Positions 43,362-64,000 of a DNA stretch of 64,000 bases are shown here, piece after piece. Position 1 is the first letter of the stretch. Each line of letters opens with the position of its first letter. Source of the DNA: a virus; IMG/VR virus record IMGVR_UViG_3300021138_000019, positions 1-64,000 of that record; one strand, given 5' to 3'. The notes beneath the pieces were generated by a model. It did no database searches and was not told the DNA's origin. It was given only the letters and a program-made list of their open reading frames with translations. Position numbers and translations under genes: made by a program.

Positions 43362-45070
43362 TATTATTTAAAAAAATAAAATGGCGTAATTTTTTAAGTA
43401 CCGGCGCACATTTCACAGAAATTGATTTTACCAAATCTACAAATACATTGATTATTGGGCATAATGGGGCTGGAAAATCCACAATATTAGATGCGTTATG
43501 TTTTGTATTATTTAATAAGCCTTATCGTAAAATAAACAAAACACAGATTCCCAATTCTATTAACAATTCAGATTGCATTGTAGAAATAGAATTTGAAATT
43601 GGTTCTAAAAAATATAAAGTTATACGAGGTATCAAACCTAATACGTTTGAGATTTTCTGTAATGGGGTTTTGTTGAACCAAGATGCGAAAGCAAAAGACT
43701 ATCAGGAACACTTAGAGAAGTTTATTCTCAAATTAAATTATAAGTCCTTTACGCAAGTAGTCATCCTTGGTTCGGCATCTTTTATACCGTTCATGCAGTT
43801 AGAAACAAAAGACCGCAGAACGATTATTGAAGACTTGTTAGATATTGAAATTTTTTCTGAAATGAATGTTATTCTTGCCGACAAATTAAAAATTGTAAAA
43901 AACAATCTAATACAAAATATAAGCGACAGAAAACTCAAAACTGAATTAATTAAAACTAATGAAGGTTTCATTGAACAACAAAAACAATCACATGCAGAAG
44001 AGATTGAAACAAAAAGAAAAGAAATTGAAGAGTCCTCAAATATCATTGAGAAGTTACAATGCGATATTAAACTTATTAATAAGCATATTGCGGTGTTACA
44101 ATCTAAAATACAAGACAAGGAATCAGTTGAAGATAAGACAAAAAAACTTTTTCAACTTGAGGCGAAAATTGAGTCCAACATAAAAAAAATCAATAAGGAT
44201 ATTGAGTTCTATGAAAAAAACGACCACTGCCCAACCTGTAGACAATCAATCGAATCAGGATTCAAAACAACACAAGTATCCGAACGTCAAAGTAAAGTCG
44301 ATGTTCAACAAAAGGGCCTTAAAGAAATTACAGAGGAAATTAACAAACGAAACGAACGATTAACAGAGATTTTTAATATTGTTAAACATATAAACGCACA
44401 TAATAATGAAGTTATAACACATAATTCAACTGTATCGGCAACTCAAAAATACGTAACAAAGTTGTTGAAAGAGATTGATGAGTTATCTATTAAAAGAGAT
44501 ACCCTAACAGAAGAAGCCGGTATAAAAAAACTAAGAACTGAGTTAAACTCTTTACAATTAGATCATGAAGAACTTCACAAAACAAAACAATATTATGATT
44601 TTGCATCGACATTATTGAAAGATACTGGTATTAAAACTAAGATAGTTCGTCAGTATTTACCAGTTATGAATAAGTTAATCAATAAGTATTTGACTGCAAT
44701 GGACTTCTTTGTTAATTTTAATATCGATGAAAATTTTGAAGAGACAATTAAATCAAGACACCGTGATGAATTTAGTTATTCTAATTTTTCAGAAGGCGAA
44801 AAACTTAGAATTGATTTGGCATTATTATTTACCTGGCGAGAAATTGCTAAAATGAAAAATTCTACAAATACCAATCTACTAATATTAGATGAAGTATTTG
44901 ATTCTAGTCTTGACATTGCCGGCACAGAAGAGTTTTTAAAATTACTCAATCAACTTGGTACTGATACTAACTTGTTTGTAATTTCACATAAGGGTGACCA
45001 ACTATTTGACAAATTCCGGTCAGTAATTAAATTTGAGAAAAAAACCAATTTCAGTAGGATCGTAAAATGA
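43358..45070 (+). CDS. 46: Recombination ATPase subunit gp46
   Basis: A 570-residue homologue of T4 gp46 (560 aa), the Rad50/SbcC-like partner of gp47 in end resection. Walker A GHNGAGKST (34-42), coiled coil ~170-430 interrupted by a CPTC zinc hook near 290-295, ABC signature FSEGEK near 477, Walker B LLILDE near 507 and the SHKG H-loop. It overlaps gp47 by 4 bp (ATGA), typical for the pair. Confidence 0.93.
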   Translation: MILFKKIKWRNFLSTGAHFTEIDFTKSTNTLIIGHNGAGKSTILDALCFVLFNKPYRKINKTQIPNSINNSDCIVEIEFEIGSKKYKVIRGIKPNTFEIFCNGVLLNQDAKAKDYQEHLEKFILKLNYKSFTQVVILGSASFIPFMQLETKDRRTIIEDLLDIEIFSEMNVILADKLKIVKNNLIQNISDRKLKTELIKTNEGFIEQQKQSHAEEIETKRKEIEESSNIIEKLQCDIKLINKHIAVLQSKIQDKESVEDKTKKLFQLEAKIESNIKKINKDIEFYEKNDHCPTCRQSIESGFKTTQVSERQSKVDVQQKGLKEITEEINKRNERLTEIFNIVKHINAHNNEVITHNSTVSATQKYVTKLLKEIDELSIKRDTLTEEAGIKKLRTELNSLQLDHEELHKTKQYYDFASTLLKDTGIKTKIVRQYLPVMNKLINKYLTAMDFFVNFNIDENFEETIKSRHRDEFSYSNFSEGEKLRIDLALLFTWREIAKMKNSTNTNLLILDEVFDSSLDIAGTEEFLKLLNQLGTDTNLFVISHKGDQLFDKFRSVIKFEKKTNFSRIVK

Positions 45071-45708
45071 GTGAATTTAAATTAATAATTGAAGAAGATA
45101 AACCAGCTAAAGTTAATACCAAAGCTGATGATGTTATTAGTTTTGATACAAGTAAGGCACTTGAGATTAAAACCGAAAAACCGAAAAATATAATTCCTCT
45201 AGTGCCTGAGTATCACTCAATATTAAGAGAAGTGATGCCCGAGTTTGATTTTTCAAAACCACCTGTAAATCCAAATGAACTTGCATCTGCACTCGTAGAT
45301 ACTTGTATTCAAAGTAAAGGTTACGGGTTATCTGCAAATCAATGCGGACTTAAATATCGTGTATTTGTAATGGGTGCCGGTGATGAATATGTTGCGTTCT
45401 TTAACCCAAAATTACTGGCAACACGAGGTGAAATTCATATGGAAGAAGCCTGTTTATCTTTTCCTTTATTAAATCTTTTTGTTACGAGAGCGGCAGAAAT
45501 AGATGTTGAGTACCAAGACTTTAACGGACTGGTAAAGACCGCAACTTTTAACGGTATAAGTGCAAGATGTTGGTTGCATGAGCTTGACCACATGAACGGA
45601 ATAGTGTATACTGATATTGTAAAACCTTTAGCCTTACAACAAGGATACAAAAGACGTATGAAAACTTTAGGTAAATTAGGATACAAATTTAAAAAGATTA
45701 AAAAATGA
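45067..45708 (+). CDS. def: Peptide deformylase
   Basis: A 213-residue enzyme removing formyl groups from nascent proteins. Motif 1 GYGLSANQ (85-92), motif 2 EEACLS with metal ligand C129 (usual EGCLS, here Ala replaces Gly), motif 3 HELDH (171-175) with two His ligands and the catalytic Glu. A ~45-residue charged N-terminal extension is absent from bacterial enzymes. Deformylases are recurrent cyanophage auxiliary genes. It overlaps gp46 and the next gene by 4 bp each. Confidence 0.88.
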   Translation: MSEFKLIIEEDKPAKVNTKADDVISFDTSKALEIKTEKPKNIIPLVPEYHSILREVMPEFDFSKPPVNPNELASALVDTCIQSKGYGLSANQCGLKYRVFVMGAGDEYVAFFNPKLLATRGEIHMEEACLSFPLLNLFVTRAAEIDVEYQDFNGLVKTATFNGISARCWLHELDHMNGIVYTDIVKPLALQQGYKRRMKTLGKLGYKFKKIKK

Positions 45709-54577: not shown

Positions 54578-54653
54578 GCTCGGTTCATCTAGAGGCCTAG
54601 GATAGTGCCCTTTCACGGCATTCACACCGGTTCGAATCCGGTACCGAGTACCA
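54578..54653 (+). tRNA. tRNA-Glu (TTC)
   Basis: Acceptor GCTCGGT/ACCGAGT (1-72 G-T wobble), discriminator A, encoded CCA. Anticodon loop CTTTCAC. T-loop TTCGAAT. Confidence 0.9.
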
Positions 54654-54773
54654 TTTGTTTTGCTGATGTAAGCCATGGGGTAAACGTCAACCCTGAGTAA
54701 CTATATTAATAAACGGTAGTGTGGCCACCAATTCCGTTGAGGTATAGCAAATAGTGCGTCAGCAAAACAAATG
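54652..54773 (+). ncRNA. Structured spacer RNA 1 (17-bp terminal helix)
   Basis: Bases 54652-54668 pair with 54757-54773 (17 pairs, one G-T). The helix begins at the second C of the tRNA-Glu CCA and ends 5 nt before tRNA-Asp. Inside, GGGT/ACCC (54678-54693) forms one hairpin, and CTATA/TATAG (54701-54705 with 54743-54747) encloses AACGG/CCGTT (54712-54716 with 54734-54738). It does not fold as a tRNA, has no T-run and no open reading frame of note. The architecture repeats at 55457-55523. Function unknown. Confidence 0.65.
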
Positions 54774-54778
54774 ATTTT

Positions 54779-54855
54779 GGTCCCATAGTATAGCCTGGTT
54801 ATTACAGCGGCTTGTCACGCCGTCAACAGGGGTTCGAATCCCCTTGGGACCGCCA
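54779..54855 (+). tRNA. tRNA-Asp (GTC)
   Basis: Acceptor GGTCCCA/TGGGACC, discriminator G, encoded CCA. Anticodon stem GCGGC/GCCGT with loop TTGTCAC. T-loop TTCGAAT. Confidence 0.9.
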
Positions 54856-54873
54856 AAAAAGAAGATAGTATAT

Positions 54874-54952
54874 TCCCTGGAATTCGAGCATGGTGCACGG
54901 ACTTGACTGTTAATCAATGATTAGCTGGGATCGTTACCCAGACAGGGAGCCA
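54874..54952 (+). tRNA. tRNA-Asn (GTT), atypical
   Basis: Acceptor TCCCTG/CAGGGA with a 7-66 mismatch, discriminator G, encoded CCA. Anticodon loop CTGTTAA gives GTT, with a mismatched first stem pair. T-stem CTGGG/CCCAG, but the loop is ATCGTTA instead of TTCRA-type, and position 8 is A instead of T. It may be functional but degenerate. Confidence 0.6.
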
Positions 54953-54957
54953 AATAA

Positions 54958-55036
54958 CTCGGTGTAGGATAGTCTGGTTCATTCCACCTGTTTTGGGAAC
55001 AGGAAATCGCAAGTTCAAATCTTGCCACCGAGACCA
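54958..55036 (+). tRNA. tRNA-Pro (TGG)
   Basis: Acceptor CTCGGTG/CACCGAG, discriminator A, encoded CCA. Anticodon stem CCTGT/ACAGG with loop TTTGGGA. T-loop TTCAAAT. Confidence 0.9.
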
Positions 55037-55042
55037 ATTAAT

Positions 55043-55127
55043 GGATGTGCCGCCGTAATGGTATGGCAGGAGATTGTAAATCTTCCGGTTTACACCACAG
55101 TTGGTTCGATCCCAACCACATCCACCA
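55043..55127 (+). tRNA. tRNA-Tyr (GTA)
   Basis: Acceptor GGATGTG/CACATCC, discriminator A, encoded CCA. Anticodon stem GGAGA/TCTTC with loop TTGTAAA. A long variable region (class II) as expected for bacterial tRNA-Tyr. T-arm GTTGG-TTCGATC-CCAAC. Confidence 0.9.
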
Positions 55128-55148
55128 TTAACCTTATTAAGGATAATT

Positions 55149-55391
55149 ATGAATTACATAATTACATTTTTAGCAGTATTCATTACAGATATCTTGTATT
55201 GTTTTTTTATAAAAGCAATGAACGAAGATAAAATGTTTCTTGCAAGTATTTGGAGTTGCTTAGTAACATTGGCCGCAAGTGTAGCGGCAATCAATTATAT
55301 TGATGACCATACAATGATAATTGCATCTGTATTAGGTGCGTTTTGCGGCACTTACGTTGCAATGAAGTTGAAAAAGAAATTATTGCCCTAA
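55149..55391 (+). CDS. Small membrane protein within tRNA cluster
   Basis: An 80-residue protein with three hydrophobic segments (about 3-20, 30-47 and 54-72): IITFLAVFITDILYCFF, SIWSCLVTLAASVAAI and MIIASVLGAFCGTYVA, ending in a Lys-rich tail. The ATG at 55149 follows AAGGA; an upstream in-frame start would lie inside tRNA-Tyr. Its stop codon overlaps the start of tRNA-Thr. Similar small membrane proteins occur in other T4-like phages; function unknown. Confidence 0.6.
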   Translation: MNYIITFLAVFITDILYCFFIKAMNEDKMFLASIWSCLVTLAASVAAINYIDDHTMIIASVLGAFCGTYVAMKLKKKLLP

Positions 55392-55458
55392 TAGTATAGT
55401 GGTATTACAACGGATTTGTAATCCGTTGACGGGAGTTCGATTCTCTCTTGGGGCACCA
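55385..55458 (+). tRNA. tRNA-Thr (TGT), overlapping the upstream CDS
   Basis: Acceptor GCCCTAA/TTGGGGC (one T-G), discriminator A, encoded CCA. Anticodon stem ACGGA/TCCGT with loop TTTGTAA. The first seven bases coincide with the last codon and stop of the membrane protein gene. Confidence 0.88.
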
Positions 55459-55523
55459 TATAGAAACACACTCATTAAGGCATCCGGTACGAAAGTAAAT
55501 TTGGCCGAGTGTGTTTCTATATG
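55457..55523 (+). ncRNA. Structured spacer RNA 2 (17-bp terminal helix)
   Basis: Bases 55457-55473 pair perfectly with 55507-55523 (17 bp). As in spacer 1, the helix begins at the second C of the upstream tRNA CCA (tRNA-Thr) and ends exactly 5 nt before the next tRNA (tRNA-Trp). The 33-nt interior can form TAC-GAAA-GTA (GAAA tetraloop) and GGC/GCC pairs. The arm sequence differs entirely from spacer 1, so the structure, not the sequence, is shared. Confidence 0.65.
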
Positions 55524-55528
55524 TAATT

Positions 55529-55602
55529 CTCTCGCAAGTGTTCCGGTAGCACAAGGTTCTCCAAAAGCCTTGGACGGGGTTCGATTCCCTGGCGGGAGGC
55601 CA
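55529..55602 (+). tRNA. tRNA-Trp (CCA)
   Basis: Acceptor CTCTCGC/GCGGGAG, discriminator G, encoded CCA. D-arm GTGT/GCAC. Anticodon stem AGGTT/AGCCT with loop CTCCAAA. T-loop TTCGATT. Position 8 is A rather than T. Confidence 0.75.
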
Positions 55603-56245: not shown

Positions 56246-56722
56246 ATGAGAGATTTTGATATAAAAGTAGTCAAAGATTTTATTTTGGCTCAAGGACCGG
56301 ATACAAAAGTATATCTAGGTGCCGACTCGGAACGTCTTAGAATTAATGGTGTATGGTATGCTGACTATGCACTTGCGGTTGTTGTTCACATTGATGGTTG
56401 CCATGGTTGTAAAATTTTTGGTTTTGTTGACCGTGAATTAGATTACGATCACAAAAAAAGTAAACCAGCAATGCGTTTGATGACAGAAGTATATAAAGTG
56501 TCTGAATTGTTTCAAGAAATGTCGGATGTTCTAGAAGACCGTCACGTTGAAGTACATTTAGATTTAAACAAATCGGATGAATTCGGTTCTTCTTGCGTTG
56601 TGCAACAAGCAATTGGGTACATCAAAGGTACATGTGATATTACTCCGATGGTAAAACCAGATGCACCTGCCGCAAGTTTTTGTGCCGACAGATTAAAAAG
56701 AATCTTGGCCGAACAAATATAA
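56246..56722 (+). CDS. RNase H-like protein (DUF458 family)
   Basis: A 158-residue protein. VYLGADSERLRINGVWYADYALAVVVHID is the first strand pair of an RNase H-like fold with an acidic residue in GADSE, and VEVHLDLNKSDEFGSS supplies another Asp; this matches the DUF458/RNaseH_like family found in phages and firmicutes. AAAGGAAG precedes the ATG. Activity is not established. The stop lies in a TATAAATA octamer. Confidence 0.7.
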   Translation: MRDFDIKVVKDFILAQGPDTKVYLGADSERLRINGVWYADYALAVVVHIDGCHGCKIFGFVDRELDYDHKKSKPAMRLMTEVYKVSELFQEMSDVLEDRHVEVHLDLNKSDEFGSSCVVQQAIGYIKGTCDITPMVKPDAPAASFCADRLKRILAEQI

Positions 56723-57105: not shown

Positions 57106-57351
57106 ATGTACACACCCCTGCATGACAAGATTATCGTTCAACGACTTGAAAAAGTCAATCAAACTGATTCGGGTATCATACTCAAATCTTCACCAGAACC
57201 AGACAGAGCAAAAGTTATTGCTGTAGGACCTGATGTTGAAGAAGTTGCAATCGGTGAAGAGATTCTAGTAAATTGGAACGGTGCAATCAAAGTCAAAGAT
57301 GACATATACACATTAAAAGTAGAGCATGTTGTTGGTGTTTTCGAATCTTAA
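57106..57351 (+). CDS. groES: GroES-like co-chaperonin
   Basis: An 81-residue Cpn10 family protein: YTPLHDKIIVQRLEKVNQTDSGIIL (N-terminal strand and start of the mobile loop), AKVIAVGPDVEEVAIGEEILVNWNGA and a C-terminal YTLKVEHVVGVFE. It is shorter than GroES (97 aa). T4 replaces GroES by gp31 for capsid folding; an analogous role in folding gp23 is plausible. AAGGA precedes the ATG. Confidence 0.85.
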   Translation: MYTPLHDKIIVQRLEKVNQTDSGIILKSSPEPDRAKVIAVGPDVEEVAIGEEILVNWNGAIKVKDDIYTLKVEHVVGVFES

Positions 57352-60580: not shown

Positions 60581-60895
60581 ATGAGTATACAAGTTTTGAA
60601 ATTAGTGACAGGTGAAGAAGTTCTTGGTGATATAGAAAGATTGTCACCAATATCTCATTATAAAGTTAAAAATCCGGTAGGCATCTCAATTGTTCGTGGT
60701 AAAGATGGACAACCAAACATCGGATTTTCACCGTTTCCACTACATGCGGAACAAATAAAAGATTCAACTATTGACATCCCAAGTACATCCATAGTATACT
60801 CATACACACCAGCACAAGATTTTATTGACAACTATAATCAAGTATTTGGTTCAGGTATCGTATTACCAAAACAGAAAGAAATTATTCTAGGATGA
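60581..60895 (+). CDS. Sm-like domain protein 2
   Basis: A 104-residue protein. IQVLKLVTGEEVLGDIERLSPISHYKVKNPVGISIV matches the Sm/LSm-like family of T4-like phages and is a paralogue of 40560-40949. It directly precedes gp43 and overlaps its start by 4 bp (ATGA at 60892). A role in post-transcriptional control of the replication operon is conceivable but unproven. Confidence 0.55.
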   Translation: MSIQVLKLVTGEEVLGDIERLSPISHYKVKNPVGISIVRGKDGQPNIGFSPFPLHAEQIKDSTIDIPSTSIVYSYTPAQDFIDNYNQVFGSGIVLPKQKEIILG

Positions 60896-62181
60896 ACTTC
60901 TACACAAGCGTTCACGTTATCGGCAATAACGTAATGTTTCGAGGTATTAGAAATGGTAAAAGAGTTAAACAAAGAATTGAATACTCGCCATCTCTATATC
61001 TTGAAACAAAAAAAGATTCCAAATACAAAAGTCTGCAAGGTCTAAACTTAGAGCAAAGAAAATTCGAAACTATCCGTGATGCTAGAGACTTTCTAGACAA
61101 TTGGCGAGATGTTTCTAATGCGCCTAAGATATATGGTCAGGCTCGTTTCGAATATGCATATATCACAGACCATTATCCTGATCTGATTGATTATGACTTT
61201 GAACAGTTAAGAGTTGCCGTAATTGATATCGAGGTCGGTTCAGAGAATGGCTTTCCTGACCCATACGAAGCGACAGAACCCATCACAGCGATTTGTATTC
61301 AATGGGTCAATGGTAAGACTTATGTGTTTGGTTGTGGCGACTATGAAACTAAAGGTAACGAAATCTATGTGAAGTGTAAAGATGAATACGAACTTTGCAA
61401 AAAATTCGTAATGCTATGGGCTGAAGACCCGCCAGATATTCTATCCGGCTGGTACATGAAAGACTTTGATGTGCCTTATCTCGTCAATCGGTTTAGGCGT
61501 ATTGTGGGGGATGATTTCGCAAAACAATTATCCCCATGGAACATAATCAAAGAACGCAAAACTATTATTAACGGTAAACAAGTTCTTTATTATGAACTTC
61601 TTGGAGTTTCCTGTTTAGATTACATTGATTTATATAAGTGGTATGCTCCTAACGGTAAGTCGCAAGAAAATTATCGCTTAGAAACTATTGCTCAAGTTGA
61701 ATTGGGTGAAGGTAAGTTATCATATGATGAATATGATAATCTTCACACATTGTATAGGCTCGACTATCAAAAATTCATAGAGTACAACATCAAAGACGTT
61801 GGTCTTGTAATGAGACTTGAAGAGAAGTTGAAGTTACTTGAACTTGCCATTTCTTTGACATATGATACAAAATCAAATTACGATGATGTGTTTGCACAGA
61901 CTCGTATGTGGGATGCATTAACTTATTCTTACCTAAAAGAGAAAGATATCATTGTACCGCCACGTATCGTCAAAGATAAGAACATGGCATTTGAAGGTGC
62001 TTATGTAAAAGAACCGCAAGTAGGTTTCCATGAATATGTTGTGTCATTCGATTTGAATTCTCTGTATCCTCACCTTATGATGCAGTATTCCATAAGTCCT
62101 GAAAACCTTGTGGAAAGAAGTTATATTTCCGAAAGAAAACAAAAACTGATTGAGGAGTTAAAGTTGAGAAACACTAAATAA
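60892..62181 (+). CDS. 43A: DNA polymerase gp43, N-terminal part (split gene)
   Basis: A 429-residue protein corresponding to the N-terminal and 3'-5' exonuclease domains plus the start of the palm. Exo I D112/E114 (VIDIEVGS), Exo II D191/D193 (KDFDVPYL), Exo III D302 (YNIKDVG), and polymerase motif A with D387 in SFDLNSLYP. It ends soon after the SPENL segment. The rest, with motifs B and C, is in a separate frame from 62744 on. T4 gp43 is one chain of 898 aa. A HNH gene lies between. The halves probably assemble non-covalently. Confidence 0.9.
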   Translation: MNFYTSVHVIGNNVMFRGIRNGKRVKQRIEYSPSLYLETKKDSKYKSLQGLNLEQRKFETIRDARDFLDNWRDVSNAPKIYGQARFEYAYITDHYPDLIDYDFEQLRVAVIDIEVGSENGFPDPYEATEPITAICIQWVNGKTYVFGCGDYETKGNEIYVKCKDEYELCKKFVMLWAEDPPDILSGWYMKDFDVPYLVNRFRRIVGDDFAKQLSPWNIIKERKTIINGKQVLYYELLGVSCLDYIDLYKWYAPNGKSQENYRLETIAQVELGEGKLSYDEYDNLHTLYRLDYQKFIEYNIKDVGLVMRLEEKLKLLELAISLTYDTKSNYDDVFAQTRMWDALTYSYLKEKDIIVPPRIVKDKNMAFEGAYVKEPQVGFHEYVVSFDLNSLYPHLMMQYSISPENLVERSYISERKQKLIEELKLRNTK

Positions 62182-62200
62182 GTAGATGTGGTTACTTATT
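62173..62200 (+). promoter_or_regulatory. Late-type octamer inside a hairpin before the HNH gene
   Basis: ACTAAATA (62173-62180, same octamer as before gp13) overlaps the 5' arm AATAAGTA (62177-62184) of a hairpin whose 3' arm TACTTATT (62193-62200) directly abuts the AGGAGA ribosome-binding site (62201-62206). This matches the I-TevI style of control, where early readthrough RNA is silenced and late RNA is translated. Confidence 0.5.
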
Positions 62201-62210
62201 AGGAGAATCA

Positions 62211-62744
62211 ATGAAATATAATATCACTAAGGATAAACTCTTTGAACTATTCATTATCAAAAATATGAGAAGGAATGAGGTAGCTGAATACTTTGGTTGT
62301 TCGGATGCCAACATAAAAAAATACCTAAAAAAATTTGACATTAAGAAGCCTTTTGATTTAGAATGTAAGAATAAAGAACGAAAGTCTTTATTAAATTGTT
62401 TGCATTGTGGTAAAGAATATGAAACGCAGAAGTTTCGGACCGAAAGTGAGAAATATGATTCAAAATATTGTAGTTATTCGTGTGCTCAAAAAAGTAGGTA
62501 TTTGGGTGAAGAACATAAACGTAGAATTAGAAATGAAATTGCCGCAAGGCGCAGAGCAAGAATACGGAATCAAACTCCAAAATTAAGTAAAAAGGAAAAG
62601 AAGAAATTGCAGGAATATTATTTGATTTGTCCTAAAGGACACGAAGTGGACCATATACAGCCTATTGCAAAAGGCGGTTTACATCATCCTGATAATTTAC
62701 AAATATTAACTAGAACTGAAAATAGAAAAAAGTGGTGTAAATAA
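62211..62744 (+). CDS. HNH homing endonuclease between polymerase halves
   Basis: A 177-residue basic protein. The N-terminal ~45 residues form an HTH ([21 protein letters not shown]); next a CxxC...CxxxC zinc motif ([15 protein letters not shown]); C-terminal HNH core [38 protein letters not shown] is 5 nt upstream. The stop overlaps the start of the second polymerase half (TAATG). No intron-type flanks fit in the short gaps, so it is free-standing, like MobE/Seg enzymes of T-even phages. Confidence 0.85.
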
Positions 62745-64000
62745 TGTTTTGTGATATAAAAAATATGACAACTGAAGAACTTGAAAAAGAGCTTCAGGCT
62801 ATAGAATTGTTTGAACAAGAAATTGGTAAAGTCAATGTTAATAATATGTTGAGCAAATCTATTGATACCTCATTTCTGGTTCCAATGAAATGTACACTCA
62901 CACCTAACGGACAGTTGTTCAGAACCGACCAACAAGGCTTCTTACCTAAGATGTTGGAAGAAATGTATGAAGATAGAAAGAAGTTTAAGAAACTATATCT
63001 ACAAGCAAAACAGGATTACGAAAATGAAACAGATGAAAGCGCCAAATACGAAATTGAAAAACGAATCTCCAAGTTCAATAACTTACAACTAGCAAAGAAA
63101 GTTGGTCTTAACTCTGCATATGGTGCTCTCGGTTCTCAATATTTTAGGTTCTTTGACCTTAGATTGGCTCTTGGTGTAACTACGGCTGGTCAATTGAGTA
63201 TTCGTTGGATTCAAAATAAGATAAACGATTACATGAATAATCTGTTAAAAACCGAAACTGATTATGTAATTGCATCCGATACGGATTCAATTTATTTAAG
63301 ACTTGGTGAATTAGTAAATAAAGTTTATGGTGTTAATGGTAAAGTTTCTATACCAATAACAAAGGTAATTGACTTTATGGATAAAGTTTGTAATGATAAA
63401 CTTGAACCTTACATTGAGAAGTCCTATAAAGAATTAGGCGACTATATGCAAGTATTCAAGCAAAAGATGCAAATGAAACGAGAGTCACTTGCCGATAAAG
63501 GTATGTGGACTGCTAAGAAACGTTATATTCTTAATGTATATGACAATGAAGGTGTTAGATATAATGAGCCAGACCTTAAGATTATGGGTCTTGAAGTTAT
63601 TAAATCATCCACACCATCCGCTATTCGAGTTAAAATGAAAGAAATGATCTCATTAATAATGAAAGGTACCGAGAAAGATATTCAAAAGTTTATCAAAGAC
63701 TTTAAGAGAGAATTCAAATCAATGCCCCCTGAAGAAATTTCTTTTCCTAGAGGTGTTAACGGTATAAGAAACTATTCTAATTCTGGTAGTATGTTATACA
63801 TCAAAGGTACGCCAATTCATGTTAAGGGTGCAATTCTATACAATCATTATCTGAAAGAAATGAAACTTACCAAAAAGTATGAATTAATTAAAGAAGGTGA
63901 AAAGATTAAGTTTACATACCTAAAAGAACCCAATCCATTTAAAGATTCGGTAATATCATTTCCAAATCGTATTCCAACCGAGTTTGGGCTTGACAAGTAT
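62744..64000 (+). CDS. 43B: DNA polymerase gp43, C-terminal part (runs off window)
   Basis: The frame is open from the ATG at 62744 to the window end (419 codons visible). After an N-terminal helical segment ([20 protein letters not shown]) not obvious in unsplit polymerases, it continues with [20 protein letters not shown], motif [11 protein letters not shown] (118-127) and motif C SDTDS with D179 and D181, then thumb sequence. Motif A is on the other chain, so the active site must be built from two polypeptides. Translation is probably coupled to the HNH gene. Confidence 0.9.

Follow-up and report, generated by a model that had tools for sequence, protein, structure and literature searches.

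Structured RNAs in phage tRNA arrays are a known broad kind, and several described systems come close to the locus analysed here. The theta ribozymes of gut phages, which are HDV-like, are associated with tRNAs, and a role in the tRNA 3′ trailer has been postulated for them (PMC10879173). Near phage tRNA islands lie GOLLD and ROOL RNAs, which form multimers by way of kissing loops (PMC12286853). The tRNA cluster of T4 contains RNAs C and D (species 1 and 2), whose biological roles are unknown according to a review (PMC3014915). Other work concerns nucleases that are possible opponents of the RNAs described below, not relatives: LshCas13a in E. coli prefers tRNA-Lys(UUU), tRNA-Glu(UUC) and tRNA-Gln(UUG) together with tRNA-Thr(UGU) (PMC11042736), RloC, when overexpressed, acts preferentially on tRNA-Glu, with tRNA-Lys and others cut as well (PMC2610378), and Cas12a3 cuts tRNA CCA tails (PMC12851939).

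The two hairpins studied here lie between tRNAs of the tRNA array of a 74-kb IMG/VR phage record, within a window of 64,000 nt (the whole stretch of DNA that was analysed). Like theta ribozymes, they are structured RNAs within a few nucleotides of a phage tRNA 3′ end; both start inside the CCA and so fall within ±5 nt of it. They differ in the long helix, CCA included, that joins their 5′ and 3′ ends, in having no ribozyme match, and in distribution, since such clamps prefer tRNAs with UUN anticodons in aquatic T4-like phages whereas theta ribozymes accompany suppressor tRNAs in gut phages. Theta and other HDV-like ribozymes do not fit, since Rfam at E up to 10 gave no ribozyme match and the 5′ end is predicted to pair with the 3′ end. 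GOLLD and ROOL do not fit either: the window elements match no Rfam model, and clamps measure 38–299 nt and are anchored on the tRNA CCA. GOLLD does match elsewhere in two of the same arrays (L114 2432–2895 and L085 11242–11709), in the same contig stretches as hairpins and with a tRNA call overlapping or close by. RNAs C and D, which are small and stable, share with the clamps the setting in a T4-like tRNA cluster, RNA D starting 1 nt after tRNA-Arg, but no T4 tRNA is followed by a CCA-anchored helix (best score 9.0, tRNA-Arg 7.0, threshold 13). A CCA clamp distributed by isoacceptor was found neither in Rfam nor in the literature searched, in which few subscription journals were covered, and the class has apparently not been described before.

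Results

A preliminary description of this DNA had proposed that an inverted repeat in each of two tRNA spacers forms a helix running from the second C of the upstream CCA to 5 nt before the next tRNA, and both repeats are present at these sites (Table 1). The arms of element 2 are 100% complementary over 17 bp; those of element 1 pair perfectly over 15 bp (54652–54666 with 54759–54773), over 17 bp with one U·G, and over 19 bp in the predicted fold. Both elements are predicted to fold much more stably than shuffled sequences (z = –5.4 for element 1 and –7.6 for element 2, 0/200 in each case), and when each hairpin is folded together with its flanking tRNAs, it is predicted to form independently of the cloverleaves, which stay intact. 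The same description had set terminators and CRISPRs aside, and our data agree: the arms are followed by ATTTTG and TAATTC and then by a tRNA, with no T run after the arms of either element, which rejects an intrinsic terminator, and no Rfam family reaches threshold in either element, E up to 10 giving only chance miRNA-like matches and one sub-threshold CRISPR-repeat match. In the same array, the window holds at 54871–54955 a tRNA-Asn(GUU)-like gene missed by ARAGORN and by Rfam at threshold, which blastn aligns at 75–84% to annotated tRNA-Asn and to unannotated copies in Acinetobacter phages.

Table 1. Clamp elements of the window and the tRNAs that flank them.
Feature	Position	Strand	Details	Source or support
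tRNA-Glu(UUC)	54578–54653	+	CCA 54651–54653 is the start of the clamp helix	ARAGORN, Rfam
Element 1, class A clamp RNA	54651–54773	+		fold z; covariance model R1, 130.5 bits; covariation at 23/33 pairs
Element 1 P1, 5′ arm	54652–54670	+	includes CA of the tRNA CCA; 19 bp with 54755–54773	
Element 1 P1, 3′ arm	54755–54773	+	paired to the CCA end	fold
Element 1 P2 hairpin	54677–54694	+	54677–54681 with 54690–54694	double changes at 4/5 pairs
Element 1 P3	54701–54747	+	54701–54707 with 54741–54747; encloses P4	double changes
Element 1 P4	inside P3	+	54712–54716 with 54734–54738	double changes
Element 1 apical-loop palindrome	54721–54728	+	GTGGCCAC; candidate kissing-loop site (putative dimerisation)	
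tRNA-Asp(GUC)	54779–54855	+	5 nt between helix end and tRNA start	ARAGORN, Rfam
tRNA-Thr(UGU)	55385–55458	+	CCA 55456–55458 is the start of the second clamp	ARAGORN, Rfam
Element 2, class C clamp RNA	55457–55523	+	arms 55457–55473 and 55507–55523; 33-nt interior	
tRNA-Trp(CCA)	55529–55602	+	5 nt downstream of the element 2 helix	ARAGORN

Twenty homologues of element 1, several with largely different arms, were aligned as class A, and the alignment has 94.1% paired cells. Compensatory changes, on which the preliminary description had made its reading depend, are abundant: both sides have changed at 23 of the 33 pairs, and the covariation score is 0.343 compared with 0.120 ± 0.012 in shuffled alignments (0/500). 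Pairing falls to 37–46% when partners are slid, a control whose outcome is somewhat favoured by the structure having been drawn on the same alignment. A covariance-model search, a check of the kind that had been suggested, finds 33 full-length matches in the loci, partly non-independent. Judged by this covariation, element 1 is a structured RNA family; blastn against cultured phages gave no match to class A.

Every one of the 16 distinct class A apical loops contains a perfect palindrome of 6–10 nt, against a shuffled mean of 3.8. The palindromes have seven different sequences, GTGGCCAC, GCTGCAGC, CTAGCTAG, GCGGCCGC, ACTCGAGT, CTCGAG and TTGCAA, and their changing sequence makes the loop look like a candidate homodimeric kissing loop, through which the RNA would dimerise. 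In class A members that do not lie directly behind a tRNA, CCA/TGG is replaced by TTA/TAA (L175, L178, L109, L147, L025) or TCA/TGA (L028, L012), still paired. Because of these paired swaps, we conclude that the last three pairs are kept as pairs and that the 3′ arm tracks the CCA. The conserved core and loop of class A suggest an independent function for some interiors.

That the two elements share structure and not sequence, and that relatives should carry such repeats, holds well beyond the window, with hundreds of CCA-anchored elements and about 140 interior families. The comparison drew on two samples: sample 1 consists of 80 related loci reached via a protein of the array (56246–56719, RNaseH_like/YkuK), and sample 2 of 80 kept from at least 585 relatives found with an alignment of divergent homologues. 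Many spacers of the sample-1 loci carry a long helix anchored on the CCA. With a score threshold of 13, an anchored helix occurs at 256 of 2829 tRNA 3′ ends in a pool that includes loci fetched by the class C arm, compared with 5 when the downstream sequence is shuffled, 5 when the anchor is shifted by 40 nt and 25 at random places. In sample 2, which was not chosen for hairpins, the figures are 93/1317 against 1 with shuffling. We also scanned IMG/VR with the class C 3′ arm alone and pooled the sites with the earlier loci. Among the matches listed and the earlier loci there are at least 156 distinct class C arm sites, 5 of them at contig edges; a complementary 5′ arm is present at all 151 non-edge sites, 124 of which lie at the CCA of a called tRNA and most of the others after the CCA of an uncalled tRNA or other RNA unit.

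The full class C motif has 0 matches in 84,980 cellular genomes, and a host origin was rejected. Judged by its major head protein, the phage is T4-like; among cultured viruses, Methylophilales phages Melnitz match best, at about 64% identity. No such clamps were found in the cultured tRNA-array phages S-CRM01, DLP6, X1, phiWae14, KARL-1 and T4, so the class seems limited to a clade. A cultured carrier is Synechococcus phage BUCT-ZZ01, in which two hairpins stand in tandem behind tRNA-Lys(UUU), at about 123,160–123,400 of ON615601.1, and further ones behind non-tRNA units that end in CCA. In this phage (L203 3169–3275) there is also a tRNA-His without an encoded CCA, whose leader and trailer lengthen the acceptor stem by about 10 bp. 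As far as sequence comparison can tell, the hairpins of the window are one case of a large class in the tRNA arrays of aquatic T4-like phages.

In 262 distinct arm pairs, positions 1–17, numbered from the first C of the CCA, are paired with few exceptions, and the helix mostly measures 17–20 bp (median 19) with A–U, U–A, G–C and C–G pairs mixed. Its first three pairs use the CCA of the upstream tRNA itself, and about 16 further nucleotides pair with the downstream arm, which is often followed by a leader of 5–8 nt or whose final GG doubles as the first GG of the following tRNA. Two positions are irregular, with an A·C mismatch at position 8 in 106/262 arm pairs and G·U at position 16. The mismatch is seen in 90 of 129 class C-like arm pairs (for example L020, L028, L038 and L062), and U·G at position 16 is common over all classes; either irregularity may be a recognition mark.

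Clustering by blastn, which may split distant homologues, groups the interiors of 242 elements into the roughly 140 families. The interior of element 2 recurs behind tRNA-Tyr in L122 and in L174 with compensated arms, CACACTC/GAGTGTG in one form and CACATTC/GAATGTG in the other. Taken together, the alignments show a predicted CCA-anchored duplex that adjoins the acceptor stem, is kept by compensatory change and encloses an exchangeable interior. In some loci two or three tandem hairpins occur, separated by units that are tRNA-like or otherwise end in CCA. Uncalled tRNA-like or other stem-closed RNAs ending in CCA or TCA occupy such places at L075 330–630, L079 720–1060, L197 780–1080, L141 350–490 and L203 11900–11980. 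By eye, interiors of 45–47 nt in the Lys–Asp spacer of L005, the Lys–Tyr spacer of L062 and the Gln–Lys spacer of L159 can be drawn as H-type pseudoknots, and one interior of this kind has a compensatory change (GGATA/TATCC compared with GAATA/TATTC).

The clamps are distributed very unevenly over tRNAs. For this comparison we used the two samples not chosen for hairpins and left out the arm-fetched set L082–L201. In sample 1 a helix follows tRNA-Glu(UUC), tRNA-Gln(UUG) and tRNA-Lys(UUU) in 73/113 cases and all other tRNAs in 28/1114 (odds ratio 71, Fisher P = 2e-64, ignoring relatedness); in sample 2 the counts are 66/123 and 20/1194 (odds ratio 68, P = 1e-58, again ignoring relatedness). The dominant member of the trio differs between samples. 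Since these P values ignore relatedness, the better argument comes from interior families, of which 49 occur behind Lys, 37 behind Gln, 26 behind Glu and at most 10 behind any other tRNA, in a count that includes arm-selected loci. Because so many unrelated families stand behind these three tRNAs, what is constant is the position in cis and not the interior. Thr-UGU is clamped in 7/55 cases in sample 2 (P = 1.5e-5, ignoring relatedness) and in 2/49 in sample 1, which is not significant.

The feature common to the trio is the UU of the anticodon. In E. coli these tRNAs carry (c)mnm5s2U at position 34, a modification that is assumed from E. coli for the phage tRNAs. No odd anticodon loops were seen in the clamped Glu and Gln tRNAs. 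The preference is not explained by high codon demand: among the longer genes of the window, codons for Lys, Glu and Gln rank in the middle at 4.1–4.4%, below those for Asn, Ile, Tyr, Phe, Val and Ala.

Near-perfect duplexes of 17–20 bp suit RNase III, and most of the 262 arm pairs have that length, so that punctuation of the spacers by RNase III is plausible from the predicted helices. None of the 8 phage genomes searched encodes an RNase III, and the double-strand cut would therefore presumably fall to the host enzyme. No MnmA partner was found in the phage genomes searched, in which an Rnl1-type RNA ligase occurs only in BUCT-ZZ01. The YkuK/DUF458 RNase H-like protein encoded inside the tRNA array (56246–56722; Pfam RNaseH_like/YkuK) is conserved in at least 585 related contigs and is a candidate RNA- or DNA-processing partner. 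Elsewhere in the window the phage encodes a peptide deformylase (45067–45705) and a GroES-like co-chaperonin (57106–57351), and at 60892–64000 its DNA polymerase is split into ORFs 60892–62181 and 62744 onwards, with an HNH endonuclease ORF (62211–62744) lying between the two.

Discussion

A role in cis is the best reading of our data, since the site on the CCA of UUN tRNAs stays the same while the interiors are unrelated. We tentatively favour the view that these RNAs are CCA clamps that act on the maturation of UUN tRNAs. The clamp of a precursor would hide the CCA from the CCA contact of RNase P, from 3′ exonucleases and from charging enzymes. Maturation would wait for a double-strand cut, presumably by host RNase III, after which trimming would expose the CCA and the interior would be freed as a small structured RNA. 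The clamp would in this way delay or gate the moment at which UUN tRNAs enter translation, holding them back until modified or keeping a pool out of reach of anticodon nucleases. Its purpose is the least certain part: UUN tRNAs with s2U34 would be preferred targets of host anticodon nucleases, and a late-maturing or shielded pool could help the phage.

Several findings argue for a cis-acting clamp: CCA anchoring far above controls, a helix fixed at 17–20 bp, covariation in class A that no shuffled alignment matches, paired replacement of CCA/TGG where the tRNA is missing, and the strong UUN enrichment in both samples. The UUN set is also the set cut by LshCas13a (PMC11042736), and RloC favours tRNA-Glu (PMC2610378). 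Against it stand the roughly half of sample-2 Glu, Gln and Lys tRNAs that have no clamp, the other tRNAs that are clamped, if at a low rate, such as Thr with element 2, and the conserved class A core and loop. Interiors may work in trans as well, and the conserved core of class A argues that at least some do.

The roles that the preliminary description offered for the hairpins, namely RNase III punctuation, spacer small RNAs acting as sponges and the signature of tRNA-cassette insertion, are partly supported, the sponge role being possible; that description did not include the UUN preference, the following of the CCA by the 3′ arm or the palindromic loop of element 1. If the interiors were the effectors, as trans-acting small RNAs that might serve as decoys of host RNA-based defence (antitoxin-RNA mimics, for example), the tRNA operon would be an expression platform, and the helix would insulate the tRNA and let the insert be cut out. 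The many interior families, some of them exchanged between tRNAs, fit this idea, as do the structured core of class A with its covarying palindrome and the GOLLD RNAs in two of the same arrays; a mere platform, however, explains neither the UUN preference nor why the CCA is tracked by the 3′ arm, and we regard this account as possible but on the unlikely side. The cassette idea gains support from 24 interior families found behind at least two different tRNAs, and the conserved class C arms and tandem copies would also agree with mobile or selfish hairpins that spread between tRNA 3′ ends through recombination of the arms or UUN-favouring insertion. Compensatory changes along the whole helix nevertheless show selection on pairing and not just spread, an enzyme acting on DNA would need to pick its target genes by two letters of the anticodon, and no recombinase was identified, which makes purely mobile cassettes an unlikely source of the pattern.

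Plain processing punctuation, in which the helix is an RNase III site that separates tRNAs without regulation and the interiors are mostly passive, draws on the length of the duplexes and on the cutting of E. coli tRNA trailers by RNases E and III (PMC10879173). Yet most tRNAs of the same arrays stand 1–10 nt apart with no need of such a site, and neither the UUN preference nor the conserved class A interior would be explained; we judge it quite unlikely as the whole account. Ribozymes that generate the tRNA 3′ end by cleaving themselves, a role suggested for theta ribozymes, would sit in the same place, and some interiors look pseudoknotted by eye, but neither element has an Rfam ribozyme match at E up to 10, pairing of the 5′ with the 3′ end over about 19 bp is unlike the HDV-like topology, and every one of some 140 unrelated interiors would need to be a ribozyme, so that we consider this reading extremely improbable. 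A bolder extension of the cis-acting clamp would make it an RNA-based anti-defence: by locking the CCA of tRNAs attacked by anticodon or tail nucleases of the host (Lys, Glu and Gln with UUN, partly Thr-UGU), it would let an uncharged, shielded precursor pool survive and mature when needed, and the interchangeable, partly self-dimerising interiors would set the time or place at which the clamp opens. LshCas13a, RloC and Cas12a3 could be countered in this manner, LshCas13a preferring the UUN set plus Thr-UGU and Cas12a3 cutting the very CCA tail that a clamp would cover; the full scenario is speculative and strikes us as improbable.

A clamp with a roughly 70-fold odds preference for three isoacceptors suggests that phages may control the maturation of particular tRNAs, and this is relevant to the question of why large sets of tRNAs occur in lytic phages. 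The interior families also add a new reservoir of small RNAs, and for one or more of them the structure is well supported. Such hairpins occur in the cultured phage BUCT-ZZ01, whose host is S. elongatus PCC 7942, which makes the idea directly testable; the clamp would seem to be a new control point on viral tRNAs.
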